Of a stretch of DNA of 34,188 nucleotides, positions 1,789-21,427 are shown piece by piece (position 1 is the stretch's first letter; every line of letters begins with the position of its first letter). The notes below the pieces were generated by a model. That model did no database searches and had not been told where the DNA came from. It saw only the letters and a list, made by a program, of their open reading frames with translations. A program made the translations under genes and the position numbers. The stretch spans positions 1 to 34,188 of the forward strand of contig JAJRDU010000243.1 of assembly GCA_028748685.1 (NCBI GenBank), written 5' to 3'. Source of the stretch: Methylococcaceae bacterium. GTDB lineage: Bacteria > Pseudomonadota > Gammaproteobacteria > Methylococcales > Methylomonadaceae.

Positions 1789-2004
1789 CGGAACCTAACG
1801 TCGTCATCCCTCCAACATTCACATCACCTTGGCTAGGCGTTTTATAGCTCAAACGTCATCAGCGCCAAATTCCCCCCGACTTTTATCGTTTTTAGAAAAA
1901 AGCGGTTATCATCGAAACCAAACCGCGCCGAATCATAAACATGTTCCGCCCCCCTGTTTCTACGGCCGTTCCGACTAACCAAATCCTAAAATTCTGGAGT
2001 ATTG

Positions 2005-3630
2005 ATGGAAAACCGCAAGACTATTAACACTTTTGCAGATTTGAAAACCGGCTGGCGTAGCGACATCGCCGCCGGCTTTCTGGTGTTTCTGATCGCACTG
2101 CCCTTGTGTCTGGGCATCGCCGTGGCCTCGGGATTTCCGCCCATGGCCGGCATCATTTCGGCCATCGTCGGCGGTTTGCTGGTGTCGCGGATCAACGGTT
2201 CCTCTCTGACCATCACCGGCCCGGCGGCGGGTTTGATCGTGGTGATACTCACCGCCGTGGAATCACTGGGCCAGGGCGATGCCATGGCCGGCTACCGCTA
2301 TACCTTGGCGGCCATCGTCGTCGCCGGGATATTGCAAATGGTTTTGGGGTTCTATAAGGCCGGACGTCTGGCGGCTTTTTTCCCCTCGTCGGTGGTACAC
2401 GGCATGCTGGCGGCGATCGGCATCATCATCGTGACCAAACAGCTGCCGGTGATGGCCGGCGTCCATATCGAGGGCGGCGGCATGCTGTCCGGCATCGCCC
2501 AGCTTCCGCATGCACTGACCTATTTCATTCCGAAAATCGGCCTGATCGCCTTGGCCGGCGTGGCGATATTGATAGGCTGGCCGCAGGTTCAAAACCCTTA
2601 CTTGAGAAAAATTCCGGCGCCGATTTTGGTGATAGCCTCCGGCATGTTTCTGGGAAAGGCATTCGGTCTCGAGCACTTGCAACCCGAAGCCTTATTCAAG
2701 GCCCCCGAAGATTTGATCATAGGCGGCAACTTGTTGGTGAACATCCCCGACAGCCTGGCGGCAAGCCTGGTTTCGCCGGACTTTTCCAAGGTCGCCAGCT
2801 TCGCGTTCTGGGAAAGCGTCGTCACCATTTGCCTGGTCGGCAGCCTGGAAAGCCTGCTCAGCGCCGCTGCGGTGGACAAACTCGACCCCGAAAAGCGCTA
2901 TTCGGACCTGAACCGCGACTTACGCGCGGTCGGCATAGGCAATACCGTATCGGGCATGCTCGGCGGCCTGCCGATGATAGCCGAGATCGTCCGTAGCTCC
3001 GCCAACATCGACGCCGGCGCGAAAAGTGGCTGGTCCAACTTTTTCCACGGCGCATTTTTATTGGTGTTCGTGCTGCTGTTTCCGCATATTATCGACACGA
3101 TTCCGCTGGCATCCCTGGCCGCGCTGCTGGTTTACACGGGCTTCCGGCTGGCCTCGCCCGAGGCATTCGCCAAAACCCTGGATGTAGGCAAGGAACAACT
3201 GGCCTTGTTCGTGATCACCATCGCCGGCATCCTGGCAACCAATCTTCTGGCAGGCGTGTTGATCGGCATCGCCGCCAAACTGCTGATCCATCTCGGCAGC
3301 GGCGTTCCGCTGAAAAACCTGTTGACGATCTCCTACCGTCTGGATCGGAAACAGGCCGACACTTGCCTGATCAAAATCAGCGGCTCGGCGATATTCTCAA
3401 ACTTCATTTCATTGAAAAGCGAACTGGCGACCTTGCCAGACGGCAAGATCGTGATTTTCGACCTGACCGACGCCTACCTGATCGACCATACCGTGATGGA
3501 ATTCATAGACCACTACCAAGACGACTACATCGCTCGTGGCGGGCGCTGCGAAATTCATGGCCTAGAAACCCACGAAGCCTATTCGGAACACGAACTGGCG
3601 GCCAGAAAACGCAAAATAGCCGAAAGCTGA
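2005..3630 (+). CDS. SulP-family anion transporter with STAS domain (SulP1), candidate bicarbonate transporter
   Basis: A 541-residue inner-membrane transporter of the SulP/SLC26 family, which moves sulfate, bicarbonate or related anions, often with Na+ or H+. The N-terminal signature DIAAGFLVFLIALPLCLGIA and the ITGPAAGLIVVI segment are typical. About a dozen hydrophobic segments fill residues 20-430, and a C-terminal STAS domain follows (about 445-541, with KIVIFDLTDAYLIDHTVMEF). The start is ATG at 2005, with GGAG at 1996-1999; a TTG one codon upstream is less likely. It resembles the SulP gene at 28601 along its whole length, including a shared C-terminal segment with LAAR. It lies 89 bp upstream of hyfB on the same strand and may be co-transcribed with it. 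Bicarbonate as substrate is inferred from the surrounding dab and carbonic anhydrase genes; sulfate remains possible. Confidence 0.85.
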   Translation: MENRKTINTFADLKTGWRSDIAAGFLVFLIALPLCLGIAVASGFPPMAGIISAIVGGLLVSRINGSSLTITGPAAGLIVVILTAVESLGQGDAMAGYRYTLAAIVVAGILQMVLGFYKAGRLAAFFPSSVVHGMLAAIGIIIVTKQLPVMAGVHIEGGGMLSGIAQLPHALTYFIPKIGLIALAGVAILIGWPQVQNPYLRKIPAPILVIASGMFLGKAFGLEHLQPEALFKAPEDLIIGGNLLVNIPDSLAASLVSPDFSKVASFAFWESVVTICLVGSLESLLSAAAVDKLDPEKRYSDLNRDLRAVGIGNTVSGMLGGLPMIAEIVRSSANIDAGAKSGWSNFFHGAFLLVFVLLFPHIIDTIPLASLAALLVYTGFRLASPEAFAKTLDVGKEQLALFVITIAGILATNLLAGVLIGIAAKLLIHLGSGVPLKNLLTISYRLDRKQADTCLIKISGSAIFSNFISLKSELATLPDGKIVIFDLTDAYLIDHTVMEFIDHYQDDYIARGGRCEIHGLETHEAYSEHELAARKRKIAES

Positions 3631-3719: not shown

Positions 3720-5834
3720 ATGTCGCTATTTTTCGCCTACCTATCCGTGGCCGCGGCGCTGATCTCGGCGCTGACGGCCCTGGCCACCAACCGGCGTTTG
3801 GCGCTCGATCATCTCTCGCAAACCCTGCTGCGTCGCTGGCCGGCGATACAAACCAAAGCGGACAAACTTTTATCCGAAACGGACTATGCCGAGCGGCACC
3901 GCAACAGCCTGTTCATCTTGCTCGGTATTTCCGGTATTTGCGCATTGCTGGCGGGAGCCGGCATATTGACCAGCAATACGATCGCTACCGATACCCTGCC
4001 GCTTGGCCTGCCCTGGCTGCACTGGCACATCCGCCTCGACCCTTTATCCGGTTTTTTCCTGTGCGTGCTCGGCCTGCCGCTGATCGCCGTCAGCCTCTAC
4101 GGACCGGGCTATGTTCGAGAATTCGAACACGGCAAATATTCGCTGGCGGTGCTCGGCTTGTTCACCGGACTGTTCGTGGCAGGCATGGAACTGGTCTTGC
4201 TGGCCGACGACGCCTTCGTGTTCATGATCGCCTGGGAACTGATGTCGGTCGCCAGCTATTTTCTGGTGGTTTTTCAACACGAACATGCCGCCAACCGGCG
4301 CGCCGGTTTTCTGTATCTGTTGATGGCAGTGATTGGCGCCATCGCCATCATCCTGGCTTTCGGCGTGCTGGCCGGATTCGGCGACGGCCTGACCTTCGAT
4401 GCGATGCGCGGTGCGGTGCTGAGCCCGGCATGGGCCAGCGTCGCCTTCGTACTGGCGCTGACCGGTTTCGGCATGAAGGCCGGCCTGGTTCCTCTTCACG
4501 CCTGGCTGCCGGAAGCGCATCCGGCCGCGCCTTCCCACATTTCCGCGCTGATGAGCGGCGTCATGCTGAAAATCGCGGTCTACGGCTTCATCCGTTTCGG
4601 TTTCGACCTGCTGGACCAAATCCATTGGCAATGGGGCGTGGTAGTGCTGATTGTCGGTTCGGCAAGCGCCGTGCTCGGCATACTCTACGCGCTACAGCAA
4701 CAGAATCTGAAACGCTTGCTGGCCTATTCGTCGGTGGAAAACATCGGCATCATCTTCACCGCATTGGGTTTGTCGCTAATCTTTCTGAGCAGCGGCCAGA
4801 CCGAACTGGGTACGCTGGGTCTGGTGGCGGCCTTGCTGCACTGTCTGAATCACGCCCTGTTCAAGAGCCTGTTGTTCCTCGGCGCCGGTGCCATCCTGCA
4901 TCAGACCCATGAACAAAGCCTCGAAAACATGGGCGGCTTGATTCATCGCATGCCGGAACTGGCGGCGACATTCCTGATCGGCACCCTGAGTATCGCCGCG
5001 CTGCCGCCCTTGAACGGTTTCGTTTCGGAATGGCTGATCTTTCAGACCGCTCTGCAAGCCGGCAACCTGGAAAGCGGCGTGCTGCGCAGCTTGATTCCTA
5101 CCGCCAGCGCCGTGCTGGCGCTGACCTCGGCACTGGCGGCTACCTGCTTCGTCAAACTATACGGCGTGGCATTTCTGGGTCTGCCGCGTTCCGAACATGC
5201 CGCGCATGCCCACGAGGTTCGTCATCGCGGTATGCTGGCGGGACCGGCGATGCTGGCCGCTTGCTGCGTATTATTCGGAGTATTACCTACGCCGCTGATC
5301 GGCGCCATGGGCAATCTGACCTTACAGTTGACAGGCTTCCAACTGCCCAATACTTCCGCGCTGGGCTGGCTATGGCTGACCCCGGTATCGCCCGAGACGG
5401 CCGCTTATGCGCCGTCACTAGTGCTGATCGGCACCGTCGCTGTCGGCTGGCTGTGCTATTACCTGCTTTACCGCCGCACGGGTCTGGAACCGCGCCGCGC
5501 CGAACCGTGGGATTGTGGCTTCGGCGGCTTGAACGCCCGGATGCAATACACCTCCGGGGCCTTCAGCATGCCTATCCGCCGCATCTTCCAGCCGGTCTAC
5601 GAAATTCGCGAAACCATCGATGAAACCAAGGAAGGCCCGGCGCAAACCCGCGTGACAGCCTTGCGTTATCATTTTCAGGTGCCGGATCGCGCCTTGCTGG
5701 TCCTGTACGAACCAGCCGGCCACGCCGTGCTGCGCCTGGCGCGCTGGGCCGGCGGCCTGCAGACCGGGAATATCCGCACTTATCTCGGTTATTCCTTTTT
5801 TACCTTAATCTTCCTATTGTGGGTAATCAGCTAA
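3720..5834 (+). CDS. hyfB: Hydrogenase-4-like membrane subunit B (antiporter-like)
   Basis: A 704-residue polytopic protein homologous to HyfB/HycC, the large NuoL/M-type ion-translocating subunit of group 4 hydrogenases. Key residues of the proton_antipo_M core are present: Glu173 in AWELMSVASY (helix 5), Lys253 in GFGMKAGLVPLHAWLPEAH (helix 7) and Lys284 in VMLKIAVYGF (helix 8). The C-terminal part (after about residue 590) has the HyfB-type extension, with WDCGFGG, a YEIRETIDETKEGPAQ amphipathic stretch and a final hydrophobic helix. A GGAG ribosome-binding site lies at 3711-3714. The stop overlaps the hyfC start by one base. It would form part of the membrane arm with HyfC, HyfE and HyfF. 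Because the catalytic partner HyfG has lost its metal site, the driving reaction is unknown. Confidence 0.9.
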   Translation: MSLFFAYLSVAAALISALTALATNRRLALDHLSQTLLRRWPAIQTKADKLLSETDYAERHRNSLFILLGISGICALLAGAGILTSNTIATDTLPLGLPWLHWHIRLDPLSGFFLCVLGLPLIAVSLYGPGYVREFEHGKYSLAVLGLFTGLFVAGMELVLLADDAFVFMIAWELMSVASYFLVVFQHEHAANRRAGFLYLLMAVIGAIAIILAFGVLAGFGDGLTFDAMRGAVLSPAWASVAFVLALTGFGMKAGLVPLHAWLPEAHPAAPSHISALMSGVMLKIAVYGFIRFGFDLLDQIHWQWGVVVLIVGSASAVLGILYALQQQNLKRLLAYSSVENIGIIFTALGLSLIFLSSGQTELGTLGLVAALLHCLNHALFKSLLFLGAGAILHQTHEQSLENMGGLIHRMPELAATFLIGTLSIAALPPLNGFVSEWLIFQTALQAGNLESGVLRSLIPTASAVLALTSALAATCFVKLYGVAFLGLPRSEHAAHAHEVRHRGMLAGPAMLAACCVLFGVLPTPLIGAMGNLTLQLTGFQLPNTSALGWLWLTPVSPETAAYAPSLVLIGTVAVGWLCYYLLYRRTGLEPRRAEPWDCGFGGLNARMQYTSGAFSMPIRRIFQPVYEIRETIDETKEGPAQTRVTALRYHFQVPDRALLVLYEPAGHAVLRLARWAGGLQTGNIRTYLGYSFFTLIFLLWVIS

Positions 5835-6787
5835 TGGCCTGGTTATTGGCAATACTCGAGACCTTGCTGTTCATAGCCGCCGCCCCGCTGCTGGCAGGAT
5901 GGATCAAACGCGTCAAATGCCGGCTGCAAAACCGCAAGGCACCGTCGCTGTTCCAGCCCTACCGGGATTTGCGCAAACTGTACCGAAAGCAGCCCATTAC
6001 TCCGCATTCCGCGTCGTGGATTTTCCGCGCCGCGCCCTATATCGTGTTTGCCTCCACGGTCCTGGCGGCCGCTTTCGTGCCGTTGGTGACGGTGAATCTT
6101 CCGACCGCGCGCATCGCCGACGTGATCGTGCTGGTGGGTTTTTTCGCGCTGGGCAGGACCTTTCAGGTACTGGCCGGCATGGACATAGGCACCGCCTTCG
6201 GCGGCATGGGCTCGTCGCGTGAGATGACGATCTCTTCGATGGCCGAACCGGCCATGTTGATGGCGGTGTTCACGCTGGCGATGAGCGCGCATACCACCAA
6301 TTTGTCCCAGGCCATGAATTACGTGCTGGATACCGGCCTGGTGTTGCGGCCATCCTTCGTGTTCGCGCTGGGCGGAATGATGCTGGTCGCCGTCGCCGAG
6401 ACCGGGCGGATACCGGTAGACAATCCAGCCACCCATCTGGAACTAACCATGATTCACGAAGCGATGATATTGGAATACAGCGGCCGCTGGCTGGCGCTGA
6501 TCGAATGGGCCAGCCAGATCAAGTTGATGTTGTACGGTGTGCTGATCGCCAATATTTTTTTTCCTTGGGGCATCGCCCAGGACTTTTCCTTACAGGCCCT
6601 GGGCTTCGGCGTGGCGATGATTGCGCTGAAACTGGCGGTACTGGCGGTATTGCTGGTGCTCTCCGAGGTGCTGTTCGCCAAAATGCGCATTTTCCGGGTG
6701 CAGGAATATCTGAGCTTCGCCTATCTGCTCAGCGTGCTGGGCATGCTGAGCCACATCATCCTGGAGGCCGCGCGTGTCCATCACTGA
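5834..6787 (+). CDS. hyfC: Hydrogenase-4-like subunit C (NuoH-like membrane anchor)
   Basis: A 317-residue membrane protein of the HyfC/HycD/NuoH family, which links the peripheral electron-transfer arm to the membrane arm. Strong signatures are GGMGSSREMTISSMAEPAML (residues about 123-142) and ETGRIPVDNPATHLELTMIH followed by EAMILEYSGR (about 189-218). Glu130, Glu138, Glu189, Glu203 and Glu209 are the kind of conserved acidic residues used in proton transfer. The chosen start, ATG at 5834, overlaps the hyfB stop (TAATG). An in-frame GTG at 5819 would add five residues but has no better ribosome-binding site. It overlaps hyfE by 14 bases. Conservation here is high, so the complex is probably still assembled. 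Confidence 0.9.
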   Translation: MAWLLAILETLLFIAAAPLLAGWIKRVKCRLQNRKAPSLFQPYRDLRKLYRKQPITPHSASWIFRAAPYIVFASTVLAAAFVPLVTVNLPTARIADVIVLVGFFALGRTFQVLAGMDIGTAFGGMGSSREMTISSMAEPAMLMAVFTLAMSAHTTNLSQAMNYVLDTGLVLRPSFVFALGGMMLVAVAETGRIPVDNPATHLELTMIHEAMILEYSGRWLALIEWASQIKLMLYGVLIANIFFPWGIAQDFSLQALGFGVAMIALKLAVLAVLLVLSEVLFAKMRIFRVQEYLSFAYLLSVLGMLSHIILEAARVHH

Positions 6788-7451
6788 TCTCGATCTCTAT
6801 GGCCAGGCCATCCTGCTATTGGCCGGGCTGATCGCCCTGACCTCGTTCCTGATGCTGGGCCAATCCCGGCTGGTGCGTCTAGTGGTGATTTTCGCCATGC
6901 AAGGATTTCTGCTGGCGGCGGCTACCGCGCTAGCGGCCGGAGTGCTGAATTATCCGCATCTTTATATTTCAGCGGCGCTTAGTCTGGTGCTGAAGGGTAT
7001 CGTAATCCCTTTCCTGCTGCATCGCTTGATCCGCAGGCTGGGCCTGCACCGGGTGATGGATACCATCGATCACCCGGCGCGAGTGATGATGGCCGGCGCG
7101 TCGCTGGTAGTATTCAGTTATTACGTCAGTTTGCCGGTGGTGGCGCATTCTCCGCTGGTGACGCTGAATGCCATCGCGGTCAGCCTGGCGGTGGTTTTGC
7201 TTGGCATGTTGCTGATGATCACCCGCCGCCAGGCCGTGGCTCATGTGGTGGGCTTCATGTCGATCGAGAACGGCTTGTTCTTCGCGGCGGTGGTTTCCAC
7301 CTACGGCATGCCCATGGTGGTGGAACTGGGCGTGGCTTTCGACGTACTGGTCGCCGCCGTGGTGTTCGGCGTGTTCTTCTTCCAGATCAGCGCCAGCATC
7401 GATTCGCTGAACGTCGATCAGCTCAGCAAACTCAGCGAGGTGGACAAGTGA
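6774..7451 (+). CDS. hyfE: Hydrogenase-4-like subunit E (NuoK-like)
   Basis: A 225-residue membrane protein with about seven hydrophobic helices, matching HyfE, a small NuoK-related subunit found in hydrogenase-4 and the related Ehr complexes but absent from E. coli hydrogenase 3. The signature region FMSIENGLFFAAVV (Glu165) and the following MVVELGVAFDVLVA (Glu184) carry the buried acids expected of this family. The start is GTG at 6774, supported by GGAGG at 6763-6767; it lies inside the end of hyfC. The stop overlaps the GTG start of hyfF (GTGA), indicating translational coupling. The presence of HyfE separates this complex from formate hydrogenlyase-1 (Hyc). Confidence 0.9.
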   Translation: MSITDLDLYGQAILLLAGLIALTSFLMLGQSRLVRLVVIFAMQGFLLAAATALAAGVLNYPHLYISAALSLVLKGIVIPFLLHRLIRRLGLHRVMDTIDHPARVMMAGASLVVFSYYVSLPVVAHSPLVTLNAIAVSLAVVLLGMLLMITRRQAVAHVVGFMSIENGLFFAAVVSTYGMPMVVELGVAFDVLVAAVVFGVFFFQISASIDSLNVDQLSKLSEVDK

Positions 7452-8914
7452 TCGCCGTCTACCTGATTTTGCTTATTCCCTTGATCGGCATGGGCTTGCT
7501 GGCCCTGCTCGGCGACAGCCCCAAGGCCGGCCTGATCAATACCCGCTGCAACCTCTTGGCTTTGCTGGCCGCTATCTGGCTGGCCGTCGACGTACTCTGG
7601 AACGGCCCCCAGCTTTCCATCGGCCGGATGTTGTATATCGATTCCTTCAACGTCTATCTGGTGGCGCTGACCGCCTTCGTCGGATCGACGACTTCGATTT
7701 TCTCCGGCCCTTACATGCAGCACGAACGCGACATCGGCCGGCTCACCGCCGCGCGCCTGAAACTTTATTACTCCATGTACCAGGGCTTCATGCTGGCGAT
7801 GTATCTGGTATTGACCACCAACAACATGGGCGTGATGTGGGTATCCATGGAAGGCGCGACGCTGGCCACCGTGCTGCTGGTCAGCCTGTACCGCTCCCCG
7901 GAATCCGTGGAGGCGGCCTGGAAATACTTCATCCTCTGCGGCGTCGGTATCGCCCAGGCCCTGTTCGGTACGGTGCTTCTGTATTTCGCCGCCGAACAGA
8001 AGCTCGGCGTCGGTGGTGACGCGCTACTATGGACGGAGTTACACGAACACGCCGGCGTACTCGATCCCGCCATACTAGGTTTGGCCTTCGTGTTTCTGCT
8101 GGTGGGTTACGGCACCAAGATTGGCCTGGTGCCGCTGCATAACTGGCTGCCGGACGCGCATTCCGAAGGCCCGACACCGATGTCGGCTATACTCTCAGGG
8201 CTATTGCTGAATGATGCGCTATATGCGGTGGTGCGTTGCAAGATGCTGGTGGACGGCTCGCTCGGCACCCACATGGCGGGCTATCTGATGATGGGCTTCG
8301 GCCTGCTGTCGTTCCTGGTGGCCGCGCTGTTCCTGCATCGCCAGACCGACATCAAGCGCCTGTTCAGCTATTCATCGATCGAACACATGGGCCTGATGAC
8401 CTTCGCCTTCGGCGTCGGCAGCCCCTGGGCCACCTTCGCGGCGCTGTTCCACATGACCACCCATTCGCTGACCAAGTCGGCGATCTTCGTCACGGTCGGC
8501 CATGCCGCGCAACTGGCCGGCACCCAGCGCATGGACAAGATACGCGGCCTGATTTTGACCCAGCCCAACATAGGCTGGGGATTGCTGATCGGCACCGTCG
8601 CCATCGCCGGTTTCCCGCCCTTCGGCGTGTTCGCCAGCGAATTTCTGGTACTGGTCGCCACCATGCACGATTACCCTTGGCTGACGCCTTTCCTGCTGCT
8701 GGGCATAGGCCTGGCCTTCGCCGGCTTATTCCGTCATATACAAGCCATGGTTTACGGCGAGGTTCCGGAAGGCCAAAAACCGATCGAGGCCAATCTCTGG
8801 CCGGTGATGTTGCATCTGGCGCTAGTGTTGTGGCTCGGGCTTTCTATCCCAGGCTTCCTGGGTAACTGGTTCAATCAGGCCACGCAATTGATTTCCGGAG
8901 GCTTGCCGCAATGA
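7448..8914 (+). CDS. hyfF: Hydrogenase-4-like subunit F (antiporter-like)
   Basis: A 488-residue NuoM/N-like membrane subunit of the HyfF type. It has Glu135 in WVSMEGATLATVLL, Lys224 in GYGTKIGLVPLHNWLPDAHS, and the family sequence SEGPTPMSAILSGLLLNDAL, where HyfF proteins carry Asn-Asp at the place of the usual helix-8 lysine. The start is GTG at 7448 with a GAGGTGG ribosome-binding region at 7437-7443, and it overlaps the hyfE stop by three bases. The stop overlaps the hyfG ATG. Together with HyfB it gives the complex two ion-translocating antiporter-like modules; the third one of hydrogenase-4 (HyfD) is not in this operon. Confidence 0.9.
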   Translation: MIAVYLILLIPLIGMGLLALLGDSPKAGLINTRCNLLALLAAIWLAVDVLWNGPQLSIGRMLYIDSFNVYLVALTAFVGSTTSIFSGPYMQHERDIGRLTAARLKLYYSMYQGFMLAMYLVLTTNNMGVMWVSMEGATLATVLLVSLYRSPESVEAAWKYFILCGVGIAQALFGTVLLYFAAEQKLGVGGDALLWTELHEHAGVLDPAILGLAFVFLLVGYGTKIGLVPLHNWLPDAHSEGPTPMSAILSGLLLNDALYAVVRCKMLVDGSLGTHMAGYLMMGFGLLSFLVAALFLHRQTDIKRLFSYSSIEHMGLMTFAFGVGSPWATFAALFHMTTHSLTKSAIFVTVGHAAQLAGTQRMDKIRGLILTQPNIGWGLLIGTVAIAGFPPFGVFASEFLVLVATMHDYPWLTPFLLLGIGLAFAGLFRHIQAMVYGEVPEGQKPIEANLWPVMLHLALVLWLGLSIPGFLGNWFNQATQLISGGLPQ

Positions 8915-10503
8915 CGACTAGAGGTATCGATGGCTTCGGATTGCTGTGCGAAAAATTCGAGTCTCAGGGGGTAGCGACCCGCCTGTACCACCCCGACCAA
9001 ATACCGCCGGCCCGCCTGCTCGAAATCAACCCTGCCGGCTGGGGCAAGGCCGCCGAAACGGCTCAACTTCAGCAGTGGCGTTGGTGTGGTGTCTGGGCTG
9101 AAGATCTTGAAGCCGGGCTGACCGTCAACGCCTGTCTGGAACATCAGGGCATTTATCTGATTTTGCGTACCCATTTGCCAGACGGACAAAATAGCCTGCC
9201 TTCCCAGGCGCCGCATTACTGGGCGGCCGACCGGCCGGAGCGGAACATTCAAGACATGTTTGGCATTCGCTTTGAGGATCATCCCGATCCCAAACGTTGG
9301 GTCCGCCATCAGGCCTGGCCTGAAGACGTTTATCCCCTGCGCCGGGATTTTCCGGTGGCGGGACGCCAAACCGAGCCAACGCCACCGGATAGCACTTACC
9401 CATTCCTGAAGGCCCACGGCGCCAGCGTCTACGAAATCCCGGTCGGCCCGGTGCACGCCGGCATCATCGAACCAGGGCATTTTCGTTTTCAGGCCATAGG
9501 CGAAACCGTGTTGCATCTGGAAGAACGGCTGGGTTACGTACACAAGGGTGTCGAAAAAATCGCCGAAGGCCGCGATCCGTCGAGCTTGGCAAGGCTAGCT
9601 GGACGCGTATCCGGCGATACCACGGTAGGCCATGCCTGGGCCGCCTGCCTGGCGATGGAGCGCGCCGCCGGCATCGAAGCCCCGCCACGCGCGGCTTTCC
9701 TACGCGGCATCCTGGCGGAGCGGGAACGGGTCATCAACCATCTGTGGGACTTGGGCGCGTTGTGCAACGACGTAGGCTTTGCCTTCGGTTATTACCAGTT
9801 CGGCCGGCTACGGGAATTGTGGGTACGGGAAAATCAGGCCTGTTTCGGCCACCGACTGCTGATGGACAGGATCGTGCCGGGCGGTGTAGCCTGCGACCTC
9901 ACCCCGGATACGGCCAAGCGCATGCGGCAAGCCATTGTCGCGCTGCGTAAGGAACTGGACGAACTGATCACAATACTCGACGGCAACTCTTCATTGGAAG
10001 ACCGCTTTCTCGGGGCCGGTTTCTTGTCACCCGAACTGGCGAGTGCCCTGGGGGCGGTGGGCTTCGTCGGCCGCGCCAGCGGCCAGAGTTTCGATGTACG
10101 CAAGGATGTTCCCTACCCGCCTTACCAGCAGTTGAAGGTGCGTGTGCCAATGGAGGATCAGGGTGACGTCTCCTCGCGGTTCTGGGTCAGACACAAGGAA
10201 TTGCGCGCCTGCCTGCGTCTGCTGGAACAAATGCTGGACGGCATGCCGGCCGGAGAGCTTGTCGCCCCGTGGCTGATCCCCGACGCGGACTCGGAAGGTT
10301 TTGCGGCGGTGGAAGGCTGGCGCGGCGAGATTTTGTGCTTCGTCCGCTTCGGTACGGACAACACCATTGGCCGCTATTGGCCACGCGACCCCAGCGTCAT
10401 CAACTGGCCGGCGCTGGAAAAACTGACTCTTGGCAATATCGTGCCCGATTTTCCGGTCTGCAACAAGTCGGTCAACGCTTCCTATTCCGGCCACGATTTG
10501 TAA
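8911..10503 (+). CDS. hyfG: Hydrogenase-4-like large subunit lacking the NiFe site (NuoC-NuoD-like fusion)
   Basis: A 530-residue protein with the layout of HyfG/HycE: an N-terminal 30-kDa/NuoC-like domain (about 1-150, ending in ERNIQDMFGIRFEDHPD and PLRRDF) fused to a 49-kDa/NuoD-like large-subunit domain. In true NiFe hydrogenases the metal is held by RxCGxC near the start of the second domain and DPCxxC at the C-terminus. Here the first motif reads RVSGDT (232-237: Ser234 and Thr237 replace the cysteines). The second reads NASYSG (522-527: Ser524 and Gly527 replace them). The rest of the fold is well kept, and the C-terminus ends three residues after that motif, without the cleaved tail. 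So this is not an active hydrogenase; it resembles the catalytic-like subunit of Ehr (energy-converting hydrogenase-related) complexes. The ribosome-binding site is GGAGG at 8897-8901. Confidence 0.9.
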   Translation: MTTRGIDGFGLLCEKFESQGVATRLYHPDQIPPARLLEINPAGWGKAAETAQLQQWRWCGVWAEDLEAGLTVNACLEHQGIYLILRTHLPDGQNSLPSQAPHYWAADRPERNIQDMFGIRFEDHPDPKRWVRHQAWPEDVYPLRRDFPVAGRQTEPTPPDSTYPFLKAHGASVYEIPVGPVHAGIIEPGHFRFQAIGETVLHLEERLGYVHKGVEKIAEGRDPSSLARLAGRVSGDTTVGHAWAACLAMERAAGIEAPPRAAFLRGILAERERVINHLWDLGALCNDVGFAFGYYQFGRLRELWVRENQACFGHRLLMDRIVPGGVACDLTPDTAKRMRQAIVALRKELDELITILDGNSSLEDRFLGAGFLSPELASALGAVGFVGRASGQSFDVRKDVPYPPYQQLKVRVPMEDQGDVSSRFWVRHKELRACLRLLEQMLDGMPAGELVAPWLIPDADSEGFAAVEGWRGEILCFVRFGTDNTIGRYWPRDPSVINWPALEKLTLGNIVPDFPVCNKSVNASYSGHDL

Positions 10504-10514
10504 CGAGGGTAGCC

Positions 10515-11042
10515 ATGCTGCGACTTTACTTTAAGATTTTCAAAACCGGCATGCTCACCGAAAAACTGCCGAAAGCCAAGCCGGCCCACGAAGCCGATCA
10601 AGCCGTAGAACAAATAGGACACGCGCTGAAAACCGTAGTCGACAGACGTTTCCGCGGCAGTCTGGCGATTCGCCAGGTGGATGCCGGTTCCTGTAATGGT
10701 TGCGAGCTGGAAATTCATGCCCTCAACAACGTCTATTACGATATTGAGCGCTTCGGCGTGCATTTCGTCGCCTCGCCGCGCCACGCCGATGTATTGATGG
10801 TGACGGGTCCGGTTTCCCGGCATATGGAAGCGGCACTGCGCCATACCTACGAAGCCACCGCCGATCCGAAATGGGTGGTTGCGGTGGGCGATTGCGGAGT
10901 TTGCGGCGGTGAATTCGGCGTGTCCTATGCGAGTTGTGGCGCGGTCGGCAATGTGATCCCGGTCGATCTCACCATTCCCGGTTGTCCACCCACGCCCCAG
11001 GCCCTGTTACAAGGTTTATTGTCTCTTTGCGGCCGCAGTTGA
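10515..11042 (+). CDS. hyfI: Hydrogenase-4-like small subunit (NuoB-like, one 4Fe-4S cluster)
   Basis: A 175-residue iron-sulfur protein of the HyfI/HycG/NuoB family. The four ligands of the proximal [4Fe-4S] cluster are visible: Cys60 and Cys63 in DAGSCNGCELEI, Cys127 in VGDCGVCGGEF and Cys157 in IPGCPPTPQALLQG. An extra Cys130 follows Cys127. The ATG at 10515 is preceded by GAGGG at 10505-10509, and the N-terminal 45 residues match the HyfI extension. It is the last gene of the block; no HyfH/HyfA ferredoxin-type gene follows, so the electron path to or from this cluster is not visible here. It ends 35 bp before the convergent SulP2 gene. Confidence 0.9.
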   Translation: MLRLYFKIFKTGMLTEKLPKAKPAHEADQAVEQIGHALKTVVDRRFRGSLAIRQVDAGSCNGCELEIHALNNVYYDIERFGVHFVASPRHADVLMVTGPVSRHMEAALRHTYEATADPKWVVAVGDCGVCGGEFGVSYASCGAVGNVIPVDLTIPGCPPTPQALLQGLLSLCGRS

Positions 11043-13456: not shown

Positions 13457-15028
13457 TCATTCCTCATGCCGATTAGTTTCCGCGCTTGCCAGGCGTTTCG
13501 AAACGACCGGTTGAGCCTGGGTAATCATAACCGTTGGTCGATGCATAGACTGCAACCAGGCGTTCAAGGTCCCTTCCTGCAGCGATAAAACCCATTGCGG
13601 ATAAACCCCTAGGACCACTACCAACAAAGCCGGCAAAATCAGCACCATCAGTTCCCTTGCACGTAAATCCTGAGCTTGAGCCACAGCGGCACAGGCGACG
13701 GGGCCCCAAAAACCGCGCCGAACGAAACCCAGCACATAGGCCGCACCCAGCACGGCGGCAAATAGCGCCACCAGCGCCAGCGACGGGTAGGCCCGCAGGG
13801 TGCCGATGAAGATCAATAATTCAGCCGGGAAACCGTTGGTCCCCGGTACGCCGATACCGGACAACGCGAACAAAAAGAACAGCACCGTCAAACGCGGCAT
13901 GGGTTTCGCCAAGCCGCCGAGATGCACCAGTTCATTGCTGCCCAGGCGCTGCTGTATCATCCCGGCTATCAGCATCAGGCTGCCGGCGACGAGGGTAAAA
14001 TTGAAAAGCTGCATGATCGCACCTTGGATGGCCTGCAGGTTGAAAGCCGAGATGCCGACGATGACCAGGCCGACATGGCTGATGCTGGAATAGGCCAAAA
14101 GGCGCCGCAGATTAGTTTGCCGCAAGGCAATCAGCGCGGCGTAGACCATGGTCACCGCGCCAATGATCGCCAATAGCCAGCGATGCTGCAGGGCCGCGTT
14201 CGGCGCCAGCGGTATCGCGAAACGCACGATGCCATAGACCCCCAGTTTCAAGCCCAGCAACAAGGCGCTGATCTGTGTCGGCGCCTCCATGGCCGTGGTC
14301 GGCAGCCAGCCATGAAACGGCACCAGCGGCGCTTTCACCGCAAACCCCATCATCAACAATAGAAATACCGTTGTTTGCATCGCATCGCTCATCGGCGTGG
14401 TCAGCAATATAGGCAAGCTGAGCACCAGTTCGTCGGGAATTCCGCCGCCGGCGTAGCGAGCATGATTGATCGCCAGCATGACGATCCCGAACAGCAGCGG
14501 TACGCCGCCGAACAACATGTACAGCGTATATTTCATCGCCGCATGCCGCCGTTCCGCGCCTATGCCCCACAGGCCTATCAGGAAGAACAATGGCGGCAGC
14601 GTCAACTCCCAGAACAGGAAGAACAACGCCATGTCCAGCGCGGTAAACACGCCGATGGTAACGCTTTCCAGCGCCAGCATCAGCGCCAGATGAAAACGGT
14701 TTAAGTGTTGCACCGTGTTCCAGCCGGCGAGCAAGGTCATCAGGGTCAGCAATGCCGTCATGGGCAGGAACAGAATGGAAATCCCGTCGACGCCGAGTTG
14801 GTAACGGATGTTCAGGCCGGGTATCCAGGAATAATCTTCCAGTAATTGAAAACCGGCATGATCCGGATTAAAGCCGACCAGCGCGGCGATCGTTATCGAC
14901 AGTTCCAGGCCGGCGACCAACAGCGTAAGCCGTTTGGCCCAACGTTGATCACGGACGAAAATCAGCGCCAGCGCGCCAACCAAGGGCCAGACCAGGCACA
15001 ACGATAAAAGCGGCAAGCTGTCATTCAT
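13457..15028 (-). CDS. NuoM-like antiporter-type membrane subunit (NuoM-like 1)
   Basis: A 523-residue polytopic protein of the NuoM/MrpD (proton_antipo_M) family. It keeps the ion-path residues Glu141 (FFLFWELTLPPLFFLIG) and Lys232 (GFAVKAPLVPFHGWLPTTAM), and a helix-8 lysine in LLLGLKLGVYGIVRF. It is the last gene of the nuoM3-dabA1-dabB1-nuoM2-nuoM1 block; its ATG lies inside the end of the preceding gene (8-base overlap), so it is translationally coupled. No other complex I genes are near, so it is not part of a normal NADH dehydrogenase operon. By context I infer that it is an accessory membrane subunit of the DAB pump or a partner of the Hyf-like complex. Confidence 0.85.
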   Translation of the reverse strand: MNDSLPLLSLCLVWPLVGALALIFVRDQRWAKRLTLLVAGLELSITIAALVGFNPDHAGFQLLEDYSWIPGLNIRYQLGVDGISILFLPMTALLTLMTLLAGWNTVQHLNRFHLALMLALESVTIGVFTALDMALFFLFWELTLPPLFFLIGLWGIGAERRHAAMKYTLYMLFGGVPLLFGIVMLAINHARYAGGGIPDELVLSLPILLTTPMSDAMQTTVFLLLMMGFAVKAPLVPFHGWLPTTAMEAPTQISALLLGLKLGVYGIVRFAIPLAPNAALQHRWLLAIIGAVTMVYAALIALRQTNLRRLLAYSSISHVGLVIVGISAFNLQAIQGAIMQLFNFTLVAGSLMLIAGMIQQRLGSNELVHLGGLAKPMPRLTVLFFLFALSGIGVPGTNGFPAELLIFIGTLRAYPSLALVALFAAVLGAAYVLGFVRRGFWGPVACAAVAQAQDLRARELMVLILPALLVVVLGVYPQWVLSLQEGTLNAWLQSMHRPTVMITQAQPVVSKRLASAETNRHEE

Positions 15029-16562
15029 GATGCGGGACGTTCATATGGTGGCCATGGTGTTTCGGATAATGTTCGCCGATTTCGCTGGCTTCCTGATCTA
15101 TGAATTTCAGCCAGGGCGTCGTGTAAAAACCGGTGGCGATCAACAAGCCGCATATCGTCAGCGCGATGATGCGTTCCTTGACAATCGGGTGATTGATACT
15201 GCGATAGGGTTGGATCTTGCGTCTGGAATGGGCGATAAACAAGCGTTGGAAGGCCCATAGCAGGAAGCCCGCGGCCAGCACGTTACCCAGTAAAATGGCG
15301 ATCGCGGTCAGCCAGCCGTGCTCCTCGATGGTGCCTTCGATCAGAAGATGCGCGGCGTCGAAACCGGGAGTACCGGGCATCACCATGGTACTGAGCGCGG
15401 AAATCAGAAACAGCAAGGCGATGGTGGTGTTGGTCTCGAACAAACCGCCCAGTCGCGGCAGAAACGAAGTTCGGGTACGCTCGTAAATCAGGCCTATGCT
15501 GAACAGCATGCCGGCGGTCGCCAAGCCGTAGGCCACCGACAACAGGATGCTGCCTTCCAACGCGAAGTCGTTGAAGGAAAACACGCCGATGGCCAGCATG
15601 CCGGTATGGCTGATCACCGCGAACGCCAGCAAGCGGCGAATGTTGATCTGCATCAGCGCCAGCAGGGCGCCGTAAAAAATGCCGATCAGCCCGAGCGTGA
15701 CCACGAAATGCGCCCATTGCTCGGCGGCACCGGGCACCAGCGGCAAAATAAAGCGGATCATCGCGTAAATTCCGAGCTTCAGGCCGTGCAGGAATATCGC
15801 CGCGCTGGCGGCGGTACCGTGTTCGGCCAGCAGCGGCAGCCAGGCATGGAAGGGAAACAGCGGCGTGCGCACCGCAAACCCGAAAAACAGCAGGATGAAA
15901 ATCAAGGTTTCATTCGGAATCGCCAGATTATGGTGCTTCAGGGTCAGCCAGTCGAAACTCAGGGCCATGCCGTTTTCCGCCAGACCGAAACTCAATATCA
16001 CGAAGCCGGCCAGACTCATCGCCAGGCCAGATAGCCAATACTGCAATACCGCCTTCACCACCCGATTCCGTTGCTTGCCGGTGCCGGCAAACACGGTCAA
16101 CAACACCACCGGCACCAGTTCCAGCAAACACCAGAACCAGAATTGCAGCACGTTCAGCGCCGCGAATGCGCCTATCAAGATGCCCTGATAAGCCAGCAAA
16201 CAGGCGACGAACAATCTATCGTTGCGATGGCGGGTGATCAGCGTATAGACCAATGCCAGCAAACCCAGAATTGCGGCCAGCGGGATGAACAGAATATTGG
16301 TGCCGTCGACGCCGACCCGATAACTCAGGCCTAGAAAGTCGACGCTTTCGGCCAAGTGTATGCCGGGGGCTTCCGAATCGAAGGCCCAAAGCAAATAAAG
16401 GCTAAGCGCGACATTCAGCAGGGCACCGGCAAACGCCAGCCGCAAACTGTAATCGGGCTTGACGGTCAGCACTGCGGCCATCGTGAATAGCGGCACCAAG
16501 GTCAGCGCCGTCAAAATCGGAAATGCAGCGGCGGCCTGCCAGTAAACTATATCGGTCATCAT
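15021..16562 (-). CDS. NuoM-like antiporter-type membrane subunit with Lys-to-Arg change (NuoM-like 2)
   Basis: A 513-residue NuoM-family protein. The start ATG at 16562 overlaps the dabB1 stop (ATGA); longer readings would run far into dabB1. The core is diverged: the helix-5 glutamate is present as Glu148 in WCLLELVPVVLL, but the helix-7 lysine used for proton transfer is Arg232 (GFAVRTPLFPFHAWLP), and the sequence after it lacks the usual acidic/His pattern of WLPDAH. The helix-8 lysine is kept (FLHGLKLGIYAMIRF). The C-terminus is rich in histidine (HYPKHHGHHMNVPHHE), which may bind metal or be a chance feature. It is coupled to dabB1 upstream and nuoM-like 1 downstream, so the products probably act as a set. 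Confidence 0.83.
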   Translation of the reverse strand: MMTDIVYWQAAAAFPILTALTLVPLFTMAAVLTVKPDYSLRLAFAGALLNVALSLYLLWAFDSEAPGIHLAESVDFLGLSYRVGVDGTNILFIPLAAILGLLALVYTLITRHRNDRLFVACLLAYQGILIGAFAALNVLQFWFWCLLELVPVVLLTVFAGTGKQRNRVVKAVLQYWLSGLAMSLAGFVILSFGLAENGMALSFDWLTLKHHNLAIPNETLIFILLFFGFAVRTPLFPFHAWLPLLAEHGTAASAAIFLHGLKLGIYAMIRFILPLVPGAAEQWAHFVVTLGLIGIFYGALLALMQINIRRLLAFAVISHTGMLAIGVFSFNDFALEGSILLSVAYGLATAGMLFSIGLIYERTRTSFLPRLGGLFETNTTIALLFLISALSTMVMPGTPGFDAAHLLIEGTIEEHGWLTAIAILLGNVLAAGFLLWAFQRLFIAHSRRKIQPYRSINHPIVKERIIALTICGLLIATGFYTTPWLKFIDQEASEIGEHYPKHHGHHMNVPHHE

Positions 16563-18130
16563 CGGTATCCCAGCGCCACCATCAGTGTGATCAATACGAA
16601 CAAGGCCAGATAGCGCGGCCGCAACAACAACAGCTCGAAACGGTTCGCGGCGCGGCCCAGGCGGCGGCCGAGCCGAATCGAATCGCGGCCGATGCCGCGC
16701 AGAATAAAGCGGTATTCGAACCAGTGCAGCAAGGCAGCGGTCCATTCGGCCAGCTTTCCGGCCAGACCGCTGCCTTGCGCGAAGCGATCTTCTTCGCTAG
16801 TCAGGTTGGCGCCCATCTTTTGCTCTTCCCATTCCACCAACGAGGATATCGCCTTGATGGCCGGCGCAGGCGCGCCCAAGGCAGGATCGACGATATGCTC
16901 GTCGATGTAACGCATATCCCTGGCCAGTTGTTGGATAGGCTTGACCAGCATCCAGTCCATCGCCGCTTCCAGCCAGCCACGTTGCAGCGACACCATGAAC
17001 CCCCATCGACAGTTGGCTAGCATAGGCGAGACCGGCTTGGTGGGCCTCCCCCGGGTGTTGTGCAGGATCGACGGCGAGGTCAATAATAGATAACAGCGCA
17101 CCACCGCATGAGCGCCAAGATGCCAGGCCGCCAGAGTCCAGAAACCCAGTCCGCATTCCACAAACATCAGGCCCAGTTGCGCCGACGTGGCGAAAATCTG
17201 CGAGCTTTTGATGTCGGTCTGGCTCAATCCTACCCAATAGCTGTAAATCGTGGTCAGCGCGCCGACCACGGCCAGCACCCACATCGCCAGCGGCGCTTGT
17301 TCGAATAGTGGCCGCAATTGAATGATCAAAAATATCCCGGCATGTATCATCACCCCGCCGTAAAAAATCGCGCTGGACGGCGTCGGCCCTTCCATCGCTC
17401 GGGCCAGCCACGGCGTGAACGGCACTTGCGCCGATTTGGCGAACGCCGCCAGCGCAAAACTCAGCGCCAGCAAGGTGGCGTCGCCGTGATCCAAATCAGC
17501 CGCGCCGTTGTTGATCGCCCGCCAATCGGCGCTTTCCAGCCAGGCCAGGGCCAAACCTATCGCCAGAATAAATCCACCGTCGCCGACCCGGTTGGTGACG
17601 AAGGCCCTGGTGGCGTTGTGCGAGGCCACCGGCCTGTCATAGGCATAGGCGATCAACCAGTAGGAACACACACCGGCGATCTCCCAGCCGATGAAGCTGA
17701 ATACCGCATTGCCGGACAACACCAATAGCAACATCGCCGCCGCAAACAGATTCAGGATGAAAAAGAAACGATGAAAGCCGGCCTCGCGGTGCATGTAATT
17801 CACCGAAAATCGCATCACGATCAACAGCAGCAACGAGAACAGGCTGGCTAGTGCCAGATTGAAACCGCCGCTCGTCAGCTTGAAAGCAATAGCCAGCTTG
17901 CCGCTGTTTAGCCAGTCGCCGTAATGATATGAGGTGGCAAGCTTTCCAAACTGATCGCAAGCCAGCAATCCCAAGGCGGTGGCTACCGAAACACTAATGG
18001 CCAGCAACGTGATCCGCGCCGTCGCTTTCTCGCCGGATTCGCCGTCGATGATGTGGAAAAAATTCAGGCCGCCTACCAGCAGCGCGGCCAGCAGCGGTGA
18101 CAAAGGAATCAGAACCGTCCAGATAGCCAT
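16559..18130 (-). CDS. dabB: DAB inorganic-carbon pump membrane subunit DabB (NuoL-like), first pair
   Basis: A 523-residue NuoL/proton_antipo_M protein, read with ATG at 18130 just past the dabA1 stop, with GAGGG as ribosome-binding site inside the dabA1 end. Core residues are Glu150 in FSFIGWEIAGVCSYWLIAY and Lys232 in FAKSAQVPFTPWLARAMEGP, followed by the DabB/NuoL signature PTPSSAIFYGGVMIHAG. The C-terminal third is not the NuoL piston helix but a charged region (VEWEEQKMGANLTSEEDRF) and a final hydrophobic helix. DabB proteins are the cation-conducting partner of DabA; together they use the proton or sodium gradient to drive one-way hydration of CO2 to bicarbonate in the cytoplasm. Immediate linkage to dabA1 makes the assignment firm. 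Confidence 0.88.
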   Translation of the reverse strand: MAIWTVLIPLSPLLAALLVGGLNFFHIIDGESGEKATARITLLAISVSVATALGLLACDQFGKLATSYHYGDWLNSGKLAIAFKLTSGGFNLALASLFSLLLLIVMRFSVNYMHREAGFHRFFFILNLFAAAMLLLVLSGNAVFSFIGWEIAGVCSYWLIAYAYDRPVASHNATRAFVTNRVGDGGFILAIGLALAWLESADWRAINNGAADLDHGDATLLALSFALAAFAKSAQVPFTPWLARAMEGPTPSSAIFYGGVMIHAGIFLIIQLRPLFEQAPLAMWVLAVVGALTTIYSYWVGLSQTDIKSSQIFATSAQLGLMFVECGLGFWTLAAWHLGAHAVVRCYLLLTSPSILHNTRGRPTKPVSPMLANCRWGFMVSLQRGWLEAAMDWMLVKPIQQLARDMRYIDEHIVDPALGAPAPAIKAISSLVEWEEQKMGANLTSEEDRFAQGSGLAGKLAEWTAALLHWFEYRFILRGIGRDSIRLGRRLGRAANRFELLLLRPRYLALFVLITLMVALGYR

Positions 18131-18132
18131 GT

Positions 18133-21100
18133 TCACAAGCCCTCGGCCAAAACAGCTTGTTTGATCAACATGGTCTCCACCGGCTGGGTCTCCTGCCGAT
18201 AACAATCGGGCGAATCGTTCCGTAGCGGCAATTCAATATCCGCCGGCTGCCAGGCCACGAAACCTACCCCGCGTTGAAACACGCTGATTTCGCCGCTATC
18301 CGGGTCCTTGGCGCTGAGATGCGCCCAGCCGCCGCCTATCAGTTCCCGCAAACTTTCCTGGCGGCCATAGATTTGCTCCAGCACCGAAGTCTTGGCCTCG
18401 ACGATAATCTGCAGACGCATCGCTTCGTGAATTTCTATCATCTGCCGTGGCAAGCCGGTGCGCAAATCGCCGCCGGCCCCTTCCATCACCGCGAAGAAGC
18501 CTGTCAGGTTGTGCGGCACTTTCGACCCGCAGCCCAGGCGTTCATTATTGACGGTGGAGAAATAATATTCCAGATTGATGCCGGCTCCGACCGGGCCGAC
18601 CGCCAGCAAGATGCCTTCCAGCACGGTGCCGTCGGGATCCTGGGTCGGATCGTAGGAGATCAAAAACAAGCGGCGATCGAAGAACGCGCCCTGGGTCAGC
18701 GAGCGCCTGCCCACCAAGGCCGAGGCGTTGGTGGCATGGCCGAGTTCCGGGCGCGCCTGGGAGAAATCGGCCGCCCGCCCCAGGAAATGCCGCAAGGCCT
18801 GTTCCGGCGACGGCCGGAGGGGCGCCGAAGCCAGCCGCCTGCAGCGTTCGTGAGCCGACATGCGTTGTGCATGCCGCATTTGTTCGATGAATTTAGTCAG
18901 CGCCGGCCGGCGCGCGGGCGGCACATCGGCCTGGTCGTACCAGAGTATGTCTTCGTCGCAAGTGTTGTGCTCGGCGCCTATGAACCAGGTGTCGTCCGGA
19001 ATGATAATGCCGCACTCGACCAACAATTTGCGCACCTCGGGCCGGTTGGCCATCGCCGCGAACAGCCGGGCATTCGGTCCGCCGTGGCGGCCGCTACAGG
19101 CGCCGCAATCGTAGGCGGCCAGATGCGGATTGTTCTGGCTGATCGAACCATGGCCCATCAGCACCACCAACTCGGCAAAGCCGTATGTCAGGCCGGTATT
19201 TCTCAGGAAGCCGGCGATGCGTTCGGCCTGTTCCTGGTCGGTGAAACCTAGCCTGGGCTTCTCCGGCGTGGCCGGACTGCCGTTTGCATCGGCGTCGAAC
19301 CGCAAACGGGTGGAGGGTTCCGGCGCGACGATTTCGCCAACGGCACTCAGCAGACGCTGCTGAGTCTTGGGAAAAAAACTCTTCGCCAAAAGGCCGGCCA
19401 GTGTCAATGGTGCAAGCGCGTTGATCAAGGGATAGGACAGCAAGGCATCGCGGCGCAAACCGTGATGCAGCAGATCGGCGACACGCCGCTTGAGCTTAAG
19501 GCCTCGCCGATGACGACGCTCCCGGTTTTCCTGACCGACTTGGCTCTGTTCCCGAACATTATGGGACGGCGTCACCACCACCGGGCACAGCGCCGTGAGC
19601 CGGGTATCGTCCAAGCCTTGATAATTCATCGGTACGCCGAAGAAACCGGCCGCACCCAGGGTCTCGATCGCCGGATTCAATTCCTCCAGATGGCGGCGTA
19701 TACCTTCCTCCCTGTCGTCCATGCAGAACACGATTTGCGCTTCGGGACGGCTATCCCGCCGCGCCCAACGTCCTCGATCATGATTGGCATGCAAGGCTTG
19801 CAACAGCCGTTGTTGATAATGGCGTTCGTAGGCTTCGAGCCAGGCCTTGCTGCGTTGCGCCTGGTCAAAGCCGTCGATAATGTCCAGCCATTCCAGCAAT
19901 TGGGTTTTGCTCAAGGCCCGTAACGAGGCGGCGTTGAAATTCAGTAATCGACAGAGGAGGAACAAACGCCAGCCCTGATTGTAGACGCTGAGCTTATGGC
20001 CGTCCGCCAGCGGACTGTGGCGCCAGGTCCAGATGCGTTCGGCCAGGCTTCGCCAGGCCTGGGGGTTGCGGGCGGTATCGGCCAGCAAAGCATGCCCGCC
20101 CTGAGTCAGATATTCCGGCAATTCGCGCCGAAACAGCGCCCGCCTAACCGCAAATTCGGCCGAATATTTCTTGAAGTAGGCCAGCAGCTTGTCGAAACGC
20201 GCCTCGCAGCGCCACTGTTCACGGCAAAGCGGTTGGGCGTAAAGGCGATCCAAGGTCAGGCGTATCGCCAAATAATCGGCCAGTAGCGGCCGGGTAGCAT
20301 CGTCGGCCTGATAGCCGGGATGGGTTTGCCGCCAGTTGATCAAGCCCGACCAACCCGGCAGTTCCAGCGCCAAACGCTGTAGATAGCCCGGCCAGTGTTC
20401 GCTGGGAATCGCCAGCGCATTAAGCTGCTGAATGATCGCATCGACGGCATCGTCGGGCAGCGCCTCGGTGACGGTTTGCCAATCGCCCAGCTCTTGAAAC
20501 AGCGGCTGGGCGTCATAATCCAGACCGCGGCGCCAGGCTTGATACAAACCGAGGCTCTGACGTTGCGGCAAGCGCCAGGCGGCCATGCCTTCGTCCAGCA
20601 AGGAGCCGCAGAGACGAATCAATTGCGGCCGCACCGAATCCAGAATATCGGTGCCGCACAAGGCCTGCAATAAGCCGCGCAAGGTCAGGCTTTCGCCGAC
20701 TGGGTTAAACATAGCCTCGATTTCGGCGGCCGTCTGCCGCCGCATCTGCTCACCCACCGAGGCCTGATTGCCTTCGTCAAACCAGCTTTCCGCCTGCTCG
20801 GCGGAAAGATCGAGCAAATCTTCGGGATGCAGCTCGGGCATCCGCAATTCCAGTTTATCCAGCACACCATTCCACAGTTCGCGCGGCGTCTCACCATCGA
20901 AGGGGGCGACATCGAGCAGGCCTAGTTCCCTCGCCCGCCAATTGAACTGCGCCGGCGTTACGGGCTGCAAATCGTACAATAAGGCCAACCGGTAAAGTTG
21001 CGGGCGGCTAAGGGTTTTGCCATCGGCTTGGCAAACCACGGACGGCTCGGCTGCAAATTGCCGGGCCAGCACCGCGTCTATGTCTTCGTCGCTGATCCGG

Positions 21101-21333: not shown

Positions 21334-21427
21334 GGTCAAATCAATTCCATATTCATTGACAGGCCGAACGATGGTCTTCCAAAGGTAGCCGATTTTATAA
21401 AGTCTATTGGCCTTCTGAGCGTAGCTT

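Follow-up and report, generated by a model that had tools for sequence, protein, structure and literature searches.

The hyf operon and its large subunit

The stretch of DNA considered here, a window of 34,188 nt that makes up one contig (C243) of a 3.68 Mb metagenome-assembled genome (MAG), contains a six-gene operon, hyfBCEFGI, for a relative of complex I whose large subunit, HyfG, resembles that of a nickel-iron (NiFe) hydrogenase but has none of the four cysteines that would hold the metal. The MAG is 77% complete, is divided among 337 contigs, and has its closest relatives among the Methylococcaceae, the gammaproteobacterial methanotrophs. A SulP transporter gene and then hyfB, hyfC, hyfE, hyfF, hyfG and hyfI follow one another on the + strand (2002-11042). 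From hyfB to hyfG the consecutive open reading frames (ORFs) overlap by 4-16 nt, and a short gap precedes hyfI, whose start, placed at 10515, is deduced from its frame and the annotated spacing of a related locus (L182).

2002..3630, + strand: SulP1, an anion transporter, 89 nt upstream of hyfB (PF00916, 4.4e-54)
3720..5834, + strand: hyfB, antiporter-like membrane subunit (NF005086, 835 bits, above cut-off)
5819..6787, + strand: hyfC, NuoH-like membrane subunit (PF00146, 1.1e-37)
6774..7451, + strand: hyfE, small membrane subunit (NF008556, 6.4e-22, under its cut-off)
7448..8914, + strand: hyfF, antiporter-like membrane subunit (NF005045, 780 bits, above cut-off)
8911..10503, + strand: hyfG, 530-residue NuoC-NuoD-like large subunit without NiFe ligands (NuoC-like domain, PF00329)
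9604..9621, + strand: RVSGDT in place of RxCGxC, hyfG codons 232-237
10474..10491, + strand: NASYSG in place of DPCxxC, hyfG codons 522-527
10515..11042, + strand: hyfI, NuoB-like small subunit (PF01058)

HyfG aligns with E. coli HycE (chain E of 7z0s) over 446 residues at 2.7e-72, and this alignment sets RVSGDT opposite RVCGIC and NASYSG opposite DPCYSC. The columns of the HycE ligands C241, C244, C531 and C534 hold S234, T237, S524 and G527, and the same four residues are read when E. coli HyfG is aligned as well. The initial annotation had claimed that all four cysteines are replaced while the fold, the NuoC-like domain and the partner subunits are kept, and this description holds: PF00329 is present in HyfG, as are the partner subunits in the operon.

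The replacements are general among relatives. A family alignment of 157 rows (the window, 80 named-contig loci that are the best 80 of 336 matches, 42 sampled Gammaproteobacteria, 28 from a phylum sample and 6 from plasmids) was examined with E. coli HycE and HyfG as references. Not one of the 153 rows, window included, that have letters in all four ligand columns keeps two or more of the cysteines; a lone cysteine is found in six, three times in the first column, three times in the second and never in the third or fourth. Both motifs are absent from the 80 named-contig relatives wherever their contigs extend over the motifs (two stop short of the C-terminus), and also from 29 lower-scoring family proteins, 26 from the phylum sample and three from a class sample, one of these three covering the C-terminus only. 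The phylum-sample search, in which 69 genomes matched at 1e-40 or better (5 of them outside the examined set), provides its own positive control, since all seven E. coli-like HyfG proteins (67-78% identity to E. coli HyfG) keep RVCGIC or RICGIC together with DPCYSC.

The missing pairs have not reappeared elsewhere in the protein: the ten cysteines of the window HyfG form no replacement CxxC. The nearest conserved cysteine pair among 81 sequences, C246 (81/81) with C242 (39/81), is spaced CxxxC, and residue 242 is alanine in the window. Sequencing or assembly error, which an incomplete and fragmented MAG might invite one to suspect, has practically no chance of being the explanation, because the named-contig relatives lack both motifs too and the same replacements occur both in isolate genomes and in other MAGs.

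The core of this finding is already known, and the window adds a further member to the six-gene Hyq/Ehr type. The excerpted text of Ng et al. 2009 and Sprecher et al. 2012 (PMC2650096, PMC3357923) describes a six-subunit complex named the Hyq endo-hydrogenase, encoded by hyqRBCEFGI in Azorhizobium caulinodans and carried also by R. leguminosarum, and the later paper reports HyqG to be without both CxxC pairs (PMC3357923). In a 95-row tree, 74 family proteins, including HyqG of Rhizobium johnstonii 3841 and of Sinorhizobium fredii, form one clade with a Shimodaira-Hasegawa-like approximate likelihood ratio (SH-aLRT) of 99, a value from a quick method applied to part of the rows, with three truncated rows dropped, a long-branch warning, and a midpoint root used for drawing only. 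The window HyfG is about 45% identical to the R. johnstonii protein. Two groups stand outside the clade: the NiFe enzymes of E. coli and another Hyf-like clade without the cysteines (L129-L137), in which three of nine loci (L132, L134 and L135) have a HyfH-like gene and which may be nearer to some Ehr groups. Six genomes (G040, G068, G207, G234, G267 and G358) encode two or more Hyf-like large subunits that lack the NiFe cysteines; G068 has two from the same clade, and those of the other five genomes come from different clades.

According to the 2012 excerpt, three cysteines of HyqG are completely conserved, at A. caulinodans positions 258, 491 and 497 (PMC3357923). By a numbering offset and the R. 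johnstonii sequence these map to C285, C517 and A523 of the window, and cysteine is present at 285 in 142 of 157 rows, at 517 in 113 of 155 and at 523 in 36 of 155. It is new here that the three are not universal under wider sampling; since part of the wider clade is without them, this feature does not define the clade.

The complex is common in the genomes sampled, being carried by 45 of 369 Gammaproteobacteria and by 57 of 299 Pseudomonadota, as against seven of the latter with an intact E. coli-like HyfG. As the initial annotation had predicted, relatives are labelled as hydrogenases, under such names as "hydrogenase 4 subunit B/F", "formate hydrogenlyase" or "nickel-dependent hydrogenase large subunit". 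In Ca. Methylocalor cossyra (L182) the hyf operon is plasmid-borne, on a replicon of 148 kb, and is flanked on either side by transposases; it is partly annotated as hydrogenase-4/formate hydrogenlyase and has no SulP gene in the stretch shown. Rhizobial and Cupriavidus plasmids also carry the operon. The clusters described from A. ferrooxidans, A. caldus, M. capsulatus and Hiromi 1 likely belong to the family, judging from their published descriptions. Nitrogen fixation was considered as a common factor of the carriers and rejected, nifH being above cut-off in only 20 of 52.

Pocket, membrane arm and maturation

The surroundings of the old metal site are well conserved. In the 157-row alignment the mean share of the commonest residue is 0.96 for residues 176-195, 0.79 for 225-245 and 0.87 for 510-530, and elsewhere in HyfG it is 0.64 (246-509) and 0.54 (30-160). 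D236 is aspartate in 157/157 rows, N518, K519 and S520 are present in 155/155, Y525 in 154/154 and N522 in 154/155, and the pocket includes invariant basic residues; one of the 29 lower-scoring proteins (L244) departs at 518 and 525. The residues of proton transfer named for formate hydrogenlyase (FHL) in the excerpted text of PMC9474812, E193, R478, H284, E437 and R395, have as their window equivalents E187 (kept in 157/157 rows), R471 (156/156), H277 (156/157), E430 (154/157) and R388 (142/157). The canopy residue Asp529 is replaced by Asn522 in the window.

Conserved residues are found in the other subunits too. HyfI has four cysteines at its cluster positions (frame positions 72, 75, 139 and 169) in all 113 rows. 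In the membrane arm, E173, K253, K284, K382 and E437 of HyfB are conserved in 0.98-1.00 of relatives, K74, E165 and E184 of HyfE and E135, K224 and K343 of HyfF stand at 1.00, and charged residues of HyfC are conserved as well; those of HyfB and HyfF we take to be the proton-pumping residues. An AlphaFold2 model of HyfG (530 residues) has a mean predicted local distance difference test (pLDDT) score of 81.6, and its top Foldseek match is HycE (7z0s_E, TM 0.84). Judged by these residue patterns, the pocket looks to be under constraint rather than decayed.

The usual signs of NiFe maturation are missing. HyfG ends at L530, opposite R537, the maturation cut site of HycE, and none of the 153 rows that reach this position extends beyond it, where HycE has 32 more residues; there is therefore nothing for a maturation protease to cut. 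Some Ech-type enzymes are also without a C-terminal extension. NiFe hydrogenases depend on HypD for their Fe(CN)2CO moiety. In a search that gave matches in its control genomes (E. coli and three others), 24 of 52 genomes with the hyf complex gave no HypD match, and neither did 23 of the 40 carriers that are 90% or more complete with no more than 5% contamination; the family therefore seems not to need HypD. This test on carrier genomes is a new contribution.

The electron-input subunits are likewise not seen. No match to the ferredoxin-like HyfA and HyfH, or to HyfJ or HycB, was found in the window or in loci L002-L081 (tblastn, E 1e-4), nor was there one in L114-L128 and L147-L173; an E. coli HyfD query matches only NuoM-like genes already listed in the window. 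The initial annotation had concluded that the complex cannot be a hydrogenase or formate hydrogenlyase. With the ligands, the C-terminal extension and matches to HyfA, HyfH, HyfJ and HycB all absent, and with HypD not found in so many carriers, it is very unlikely to be one.

Neighbouring genes and control

The genes beyond hyfI include further transporters and genes of inorganic-carbon uptake.

11078-12637, - strand: SulP2 (PF00916), convergent with hyf
12663-13304, - strand: beta-carbonic anhydrase (PF00484; NF007756 above cut-off), convergent with hyf
13457..28138, - strand: two DAB-type inorganic-carbon sets with NuoL/M-like subunits (PF10070, PF00361)
28550..28565, + strand: sigma-54-like -24/-12 element with one mismatch, before SulP3
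28571..30247, + strand: SulP3, likely ATG at 28601 (PF00916-type; best PDB match 6ki1, 1.9e-23)

The two DabA genes, at 18133-21339 and 25535-28138 (PF10070, 848 and 790 bits), are distinct and lie side by side with several NuoL/M-like partners; an additional DabA is found on another contig of the MAG (C180). RuBisCO was not found in this MAG, which is 77% complete. A PF00346 search of the MAG found HyfG as its sole 49-kDa/NuoD-type protein, and a true complex I may be absent or may lie in the missing part of the assembly. At 1088-1732 the window also encodes a small protein that looks secreted and has a PEP-like anchor motif at its C-terminus; neither Pfam nor NCBIfam gives a match for it.

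It had been suspected from the window that SulP genes would accompany hyf in relatives, and they often do: of 61 testable loci (the 80 named-contig loci less 19 that are too short or without hyfB, the window not counted), 40 have a SulP gene on the same strand no more than 2.5 kb upstream of hyfB. Some of these loci have two SulP genes in tandem. In 38 of the 40, the window SulP closest to the hyf-adjacent gene is SulP3. Sigma-54-like -24/-12 elements, with up to one mismatch allowed, are expected at 0.016 per region. In 28 of 39 SulP-headed loci such an element precedes the inferred SulP start by 16-35 nt, 5 of 27 other loci have one within 500 nt before hyfB, and none was seen between SulP and hyfB (0/41); the loci are related, so neither these counts nor those of SulP are independent. 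The inferred SulP start is probably about 30 nt early, as it is in SulP3 of the window.

In the window itself the element stands before SulP3, 17.5 kb past hyfI; none was found before SulP1, and no hyqR is seen before hyfB. The published excerpts give hyqR as the first gene of the Hyq operon and place that operon under NifA/sigma-54 control. Downstream of hyfI, part of the Methylococcales loci (L026, L031, L050 and others) have nearby genes for a histidine kinase, a sigma-54-dependent response regulator and a DUF2490 protein, which suggests dedicated control. The Methylococcales arrangement, with SulP heading the hyf operon and often behind a sigma-54-like element, is new here; no description of a SulP-hyf operon was found in the open-licence literature searched.

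A wider scan, meant for loci outside the Methylococcales though a few of its loci are from methanotrophs, covered 142 of the 156 neighbour ORFs listed out of 219 chosen with codon scores. No Pfam family matched more than four of the 142; SulP did match four, one of them in a methanotroph locus (L058).

Possible function and likeness to known systems

The reading that we favour, and consider probable on the strength of conserved residues and gene content, is that hyfBCEFGI encodes a six-subunit complex I relative of the Hyq/Ehr type, one that would translocate protons with a chemistry other than that of NiFe. Instead of H2, the pocket would bind an electron carrier or else a substrate that is small and polar or anionic. 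Its chemistry would be coupled to the movement of protons across the membrane by way of the one HyfI cluster and the chain of conserved charged residues. Because the operon includes no ferredoxin subunit of the HyfH or HyfA kind, the redox partner would have to bind HyfI/HyfG directly or else belong to the quinone pool. In the Methylococcales the complex would probably work alongside SulP, supplying or spending proton-motive force for the uptake of bicarbonate or sulfate.

Several observations weigh against this picture. The first ligand loop is less conserved than the other two pocket stretches, and the model of HyfG falls below a pLDDT of 50 in residues 171-210 and 511-530, two of the stretches at the old site. 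HypD is present in the window MAG and in all eight named methanotroph genomes tested, where it presumably serves other hydrogenases, so that the HypD test bears on the family and not on the window host. SulP is not there in 21 of the 61 testable loci, and outside the Methylococcales neither SulP nor any other partner is conserved as a rule beside hyf. To these must be added the H2 measurements from Azorhizobium, considered below.

Of the alternatives, the one that survives best is an energised inorganic-carbon pump, in which the old NiFe pocket would hydrate CO2 or handle bicarbonate, driven by the proton-pumping arm and with SulP and carbonic anhydrase as partners. We regard it as unlikely. 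Its manner of working would be analogous to that of cyanobacterial NDH-1MS or of DAB, and invariant basic residues in the pocket would suit it. Three SulP genes, the beta-carbonic anhydrase and two DAB sets are packed around hyf in the window; DabA2/DabB2-like genes lie near hyf in two other loci as well (L011 and L033), and excerpted descriptions place a beta-carbonic anhydrase beside the hyf cluster of A. caldus, a family member by description only. RuBisCO-family matches occur in 20 of the 28 best-matching carriers versus 166 of 341 genomes (p 0.03, uncorrected, with the 28-genome cut chosen after the scores were seen), and three carriers have RuBisCO at distances of about 16, 29 and 38 kb from hyfG.

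That said, there is no enrichment over all carriers, either of RuBisCO (24/45 versus 162/324, by a profile, PF00016, that also picks up RuBisCO-like proteins, two weak carrier matches among them) or of DabA (12/45 versus 71/324), and DabA occurs in 6 of the 28 best-matching carriers versus 77 of 341. RuBisCO is more than 1 Mb from hyfG on the same contig in G125, G358 and G136. Outside the Methylococcales no carbon gene is conserved beside hyf, SulP reaching only the four neighbour ORFs noted above, and a zinc-type ligand set is not recognised. Co-occurrence with RuBisCO or DabA was rejected as proof of a carbon role, not being significant over all 45 carriers. A role in carbon uptake is thus attractive, without support from genome-wide co-occurrence.

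A bolder extension of the proton-pumping reading, which we offer tentatively and think doubtful, would see in HyfG a third kind of active site in the complex I superfamily. Here a conserved polar pocket (H182, E187, D236, N276, R471, N518-K519-S520, N522 and Y525) would couple small-anion chemistry, such as that of CO2 or bicarbonate in methanotrophs, to proton pumping, with SulP as partner and under sigma-54 control.

It might also be supposed that the complex is a redox-dead remnant, surviving only as an Mrp-like ion antiporter or as a scaffold for the transporter. Both the NiFe ligands and the quinone tyrosine of complex I are lost, and the electron-input subunits were not found, all of which would fit such a remnant; the pocket stretches and the cluster cysteines of HyfI are nevertheless among the most conserved parts, which is unexpected in a remnant, and we consider this account improbable.

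A very improbable account, despite the experiments behind it, is that of an H2:quinone oxidoreductase with a non-canonical H2 site, as the Azorhizobium "endo-hydrogenase" was conceived. In the excerpted text of those reports (PMC2650096, PMC3357923), H2 evolution at 20 uM O2 is about 15-fold higher when hyqRI is deleted, a hup mutant at 1 uM O2 evolves 61,000 units of H2 versus 14,000 without hyq, and a nifK hup strain still evolves 56,600 units. Their authors link hyq to H2 recycling, ascribe to it about 80% of microaerobic H2 output, and infer an H2:quinone oxidoreductase; the operon order and the cysteine loss, moreover, match between Hyq and the window. However, the Hyq cysteines at 285, 517 and 523 are only partly kept (523 being alanine in the window), and the carriers in which HypD was not found speak against a NiFe site, though not against a site of some unknown kind. 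The growth deficit of the hyq deletion is about unchanged under added H2 (PMC2650096, PMC3357923), and the H2 in the excerpts was measured in whole cultures rather than with purified complex. It is possible that the effect of hyq on H2 is indirect, by way of electron flow to another H2 source, and the same excerpts do note an uncharacterised second source of H2 (PMC2650096, PMC3357923).

These distinctions matter for how published work is read. The inference of H2 recycling in Azorhizobium (PMC2650096, PMC3357923) rests partly or wholly on this complex, as does that of formate conversion to H2 in M. capsulatus, taking the latter as a member by its excerpted description. The carriers without HypD set the complex apart from NiFe chemistry, and the SulP-hyf operons of cultured Methylobacter and Methylomicrobium offer a genetic handle on a question more than ten years old, that of what drives the pump.

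Among known systems, the DAB and NDH-1MS pumps share with the complex their NuoL/M-type membrane arms, and DAB genes accompany hyf in the window, but DabA is not matched inside the six-gene operon. The E. coli HyfG and HycE proteins share the fold and the NuoC-NuoD fusion and differ in having the four ligands, the C-terminal extension and the HyfA, HyfH and HyfJ partners. Complex I has homologous subunits in NuoB, NuoC and NuoD and, like the window (N276), an asparagine at the canopy position (N185 of NDUFS2); it differs in having a histidine of the beta1-beta2 loop where the window has Glu187, the quinone tyrosine of RxDY in NuoD where the window has Gly235, and the consecutive cysteines of N2 where HyfI has CxxC.

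Ehr, compared here through its descriptions, is presented in the excerpted literature as related to group 4, without NiFe ligands and with the gene set ehrABCDLS. Published sources on the systems and clusters discussed here also include PMC10880623, PMC2621215, PMC3826726, PMC517821, PMC4136832, PMC10974252, PMC6349859, PMC6688271, PMC10284858 and PMC2930871. Like the hyf complex, Ehr has four membrane subunits with a large and a small subunit. The initial annotation's comparison with Ehr was right in kind, but Hyq type is the more exact name; for that type the loss of the cysteines was published in 2012, which the initial annotation did not mention, any more than the genetic studies that ascribe hydrogenase activity to Hyq. 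The window departs from Hyq in its methanotroph host, in the alanine at the third Hyq cysteine, and in having SulP, with no hyqR seen, before hyfB. It agrees with Hyq in its six structural genes in the same order, B-C-E-F-G-I, in a large subunit without CxxC pairs, and in sharing a supported clade with the HyqG encoded on pRL11 of R. johnstonii 3841.

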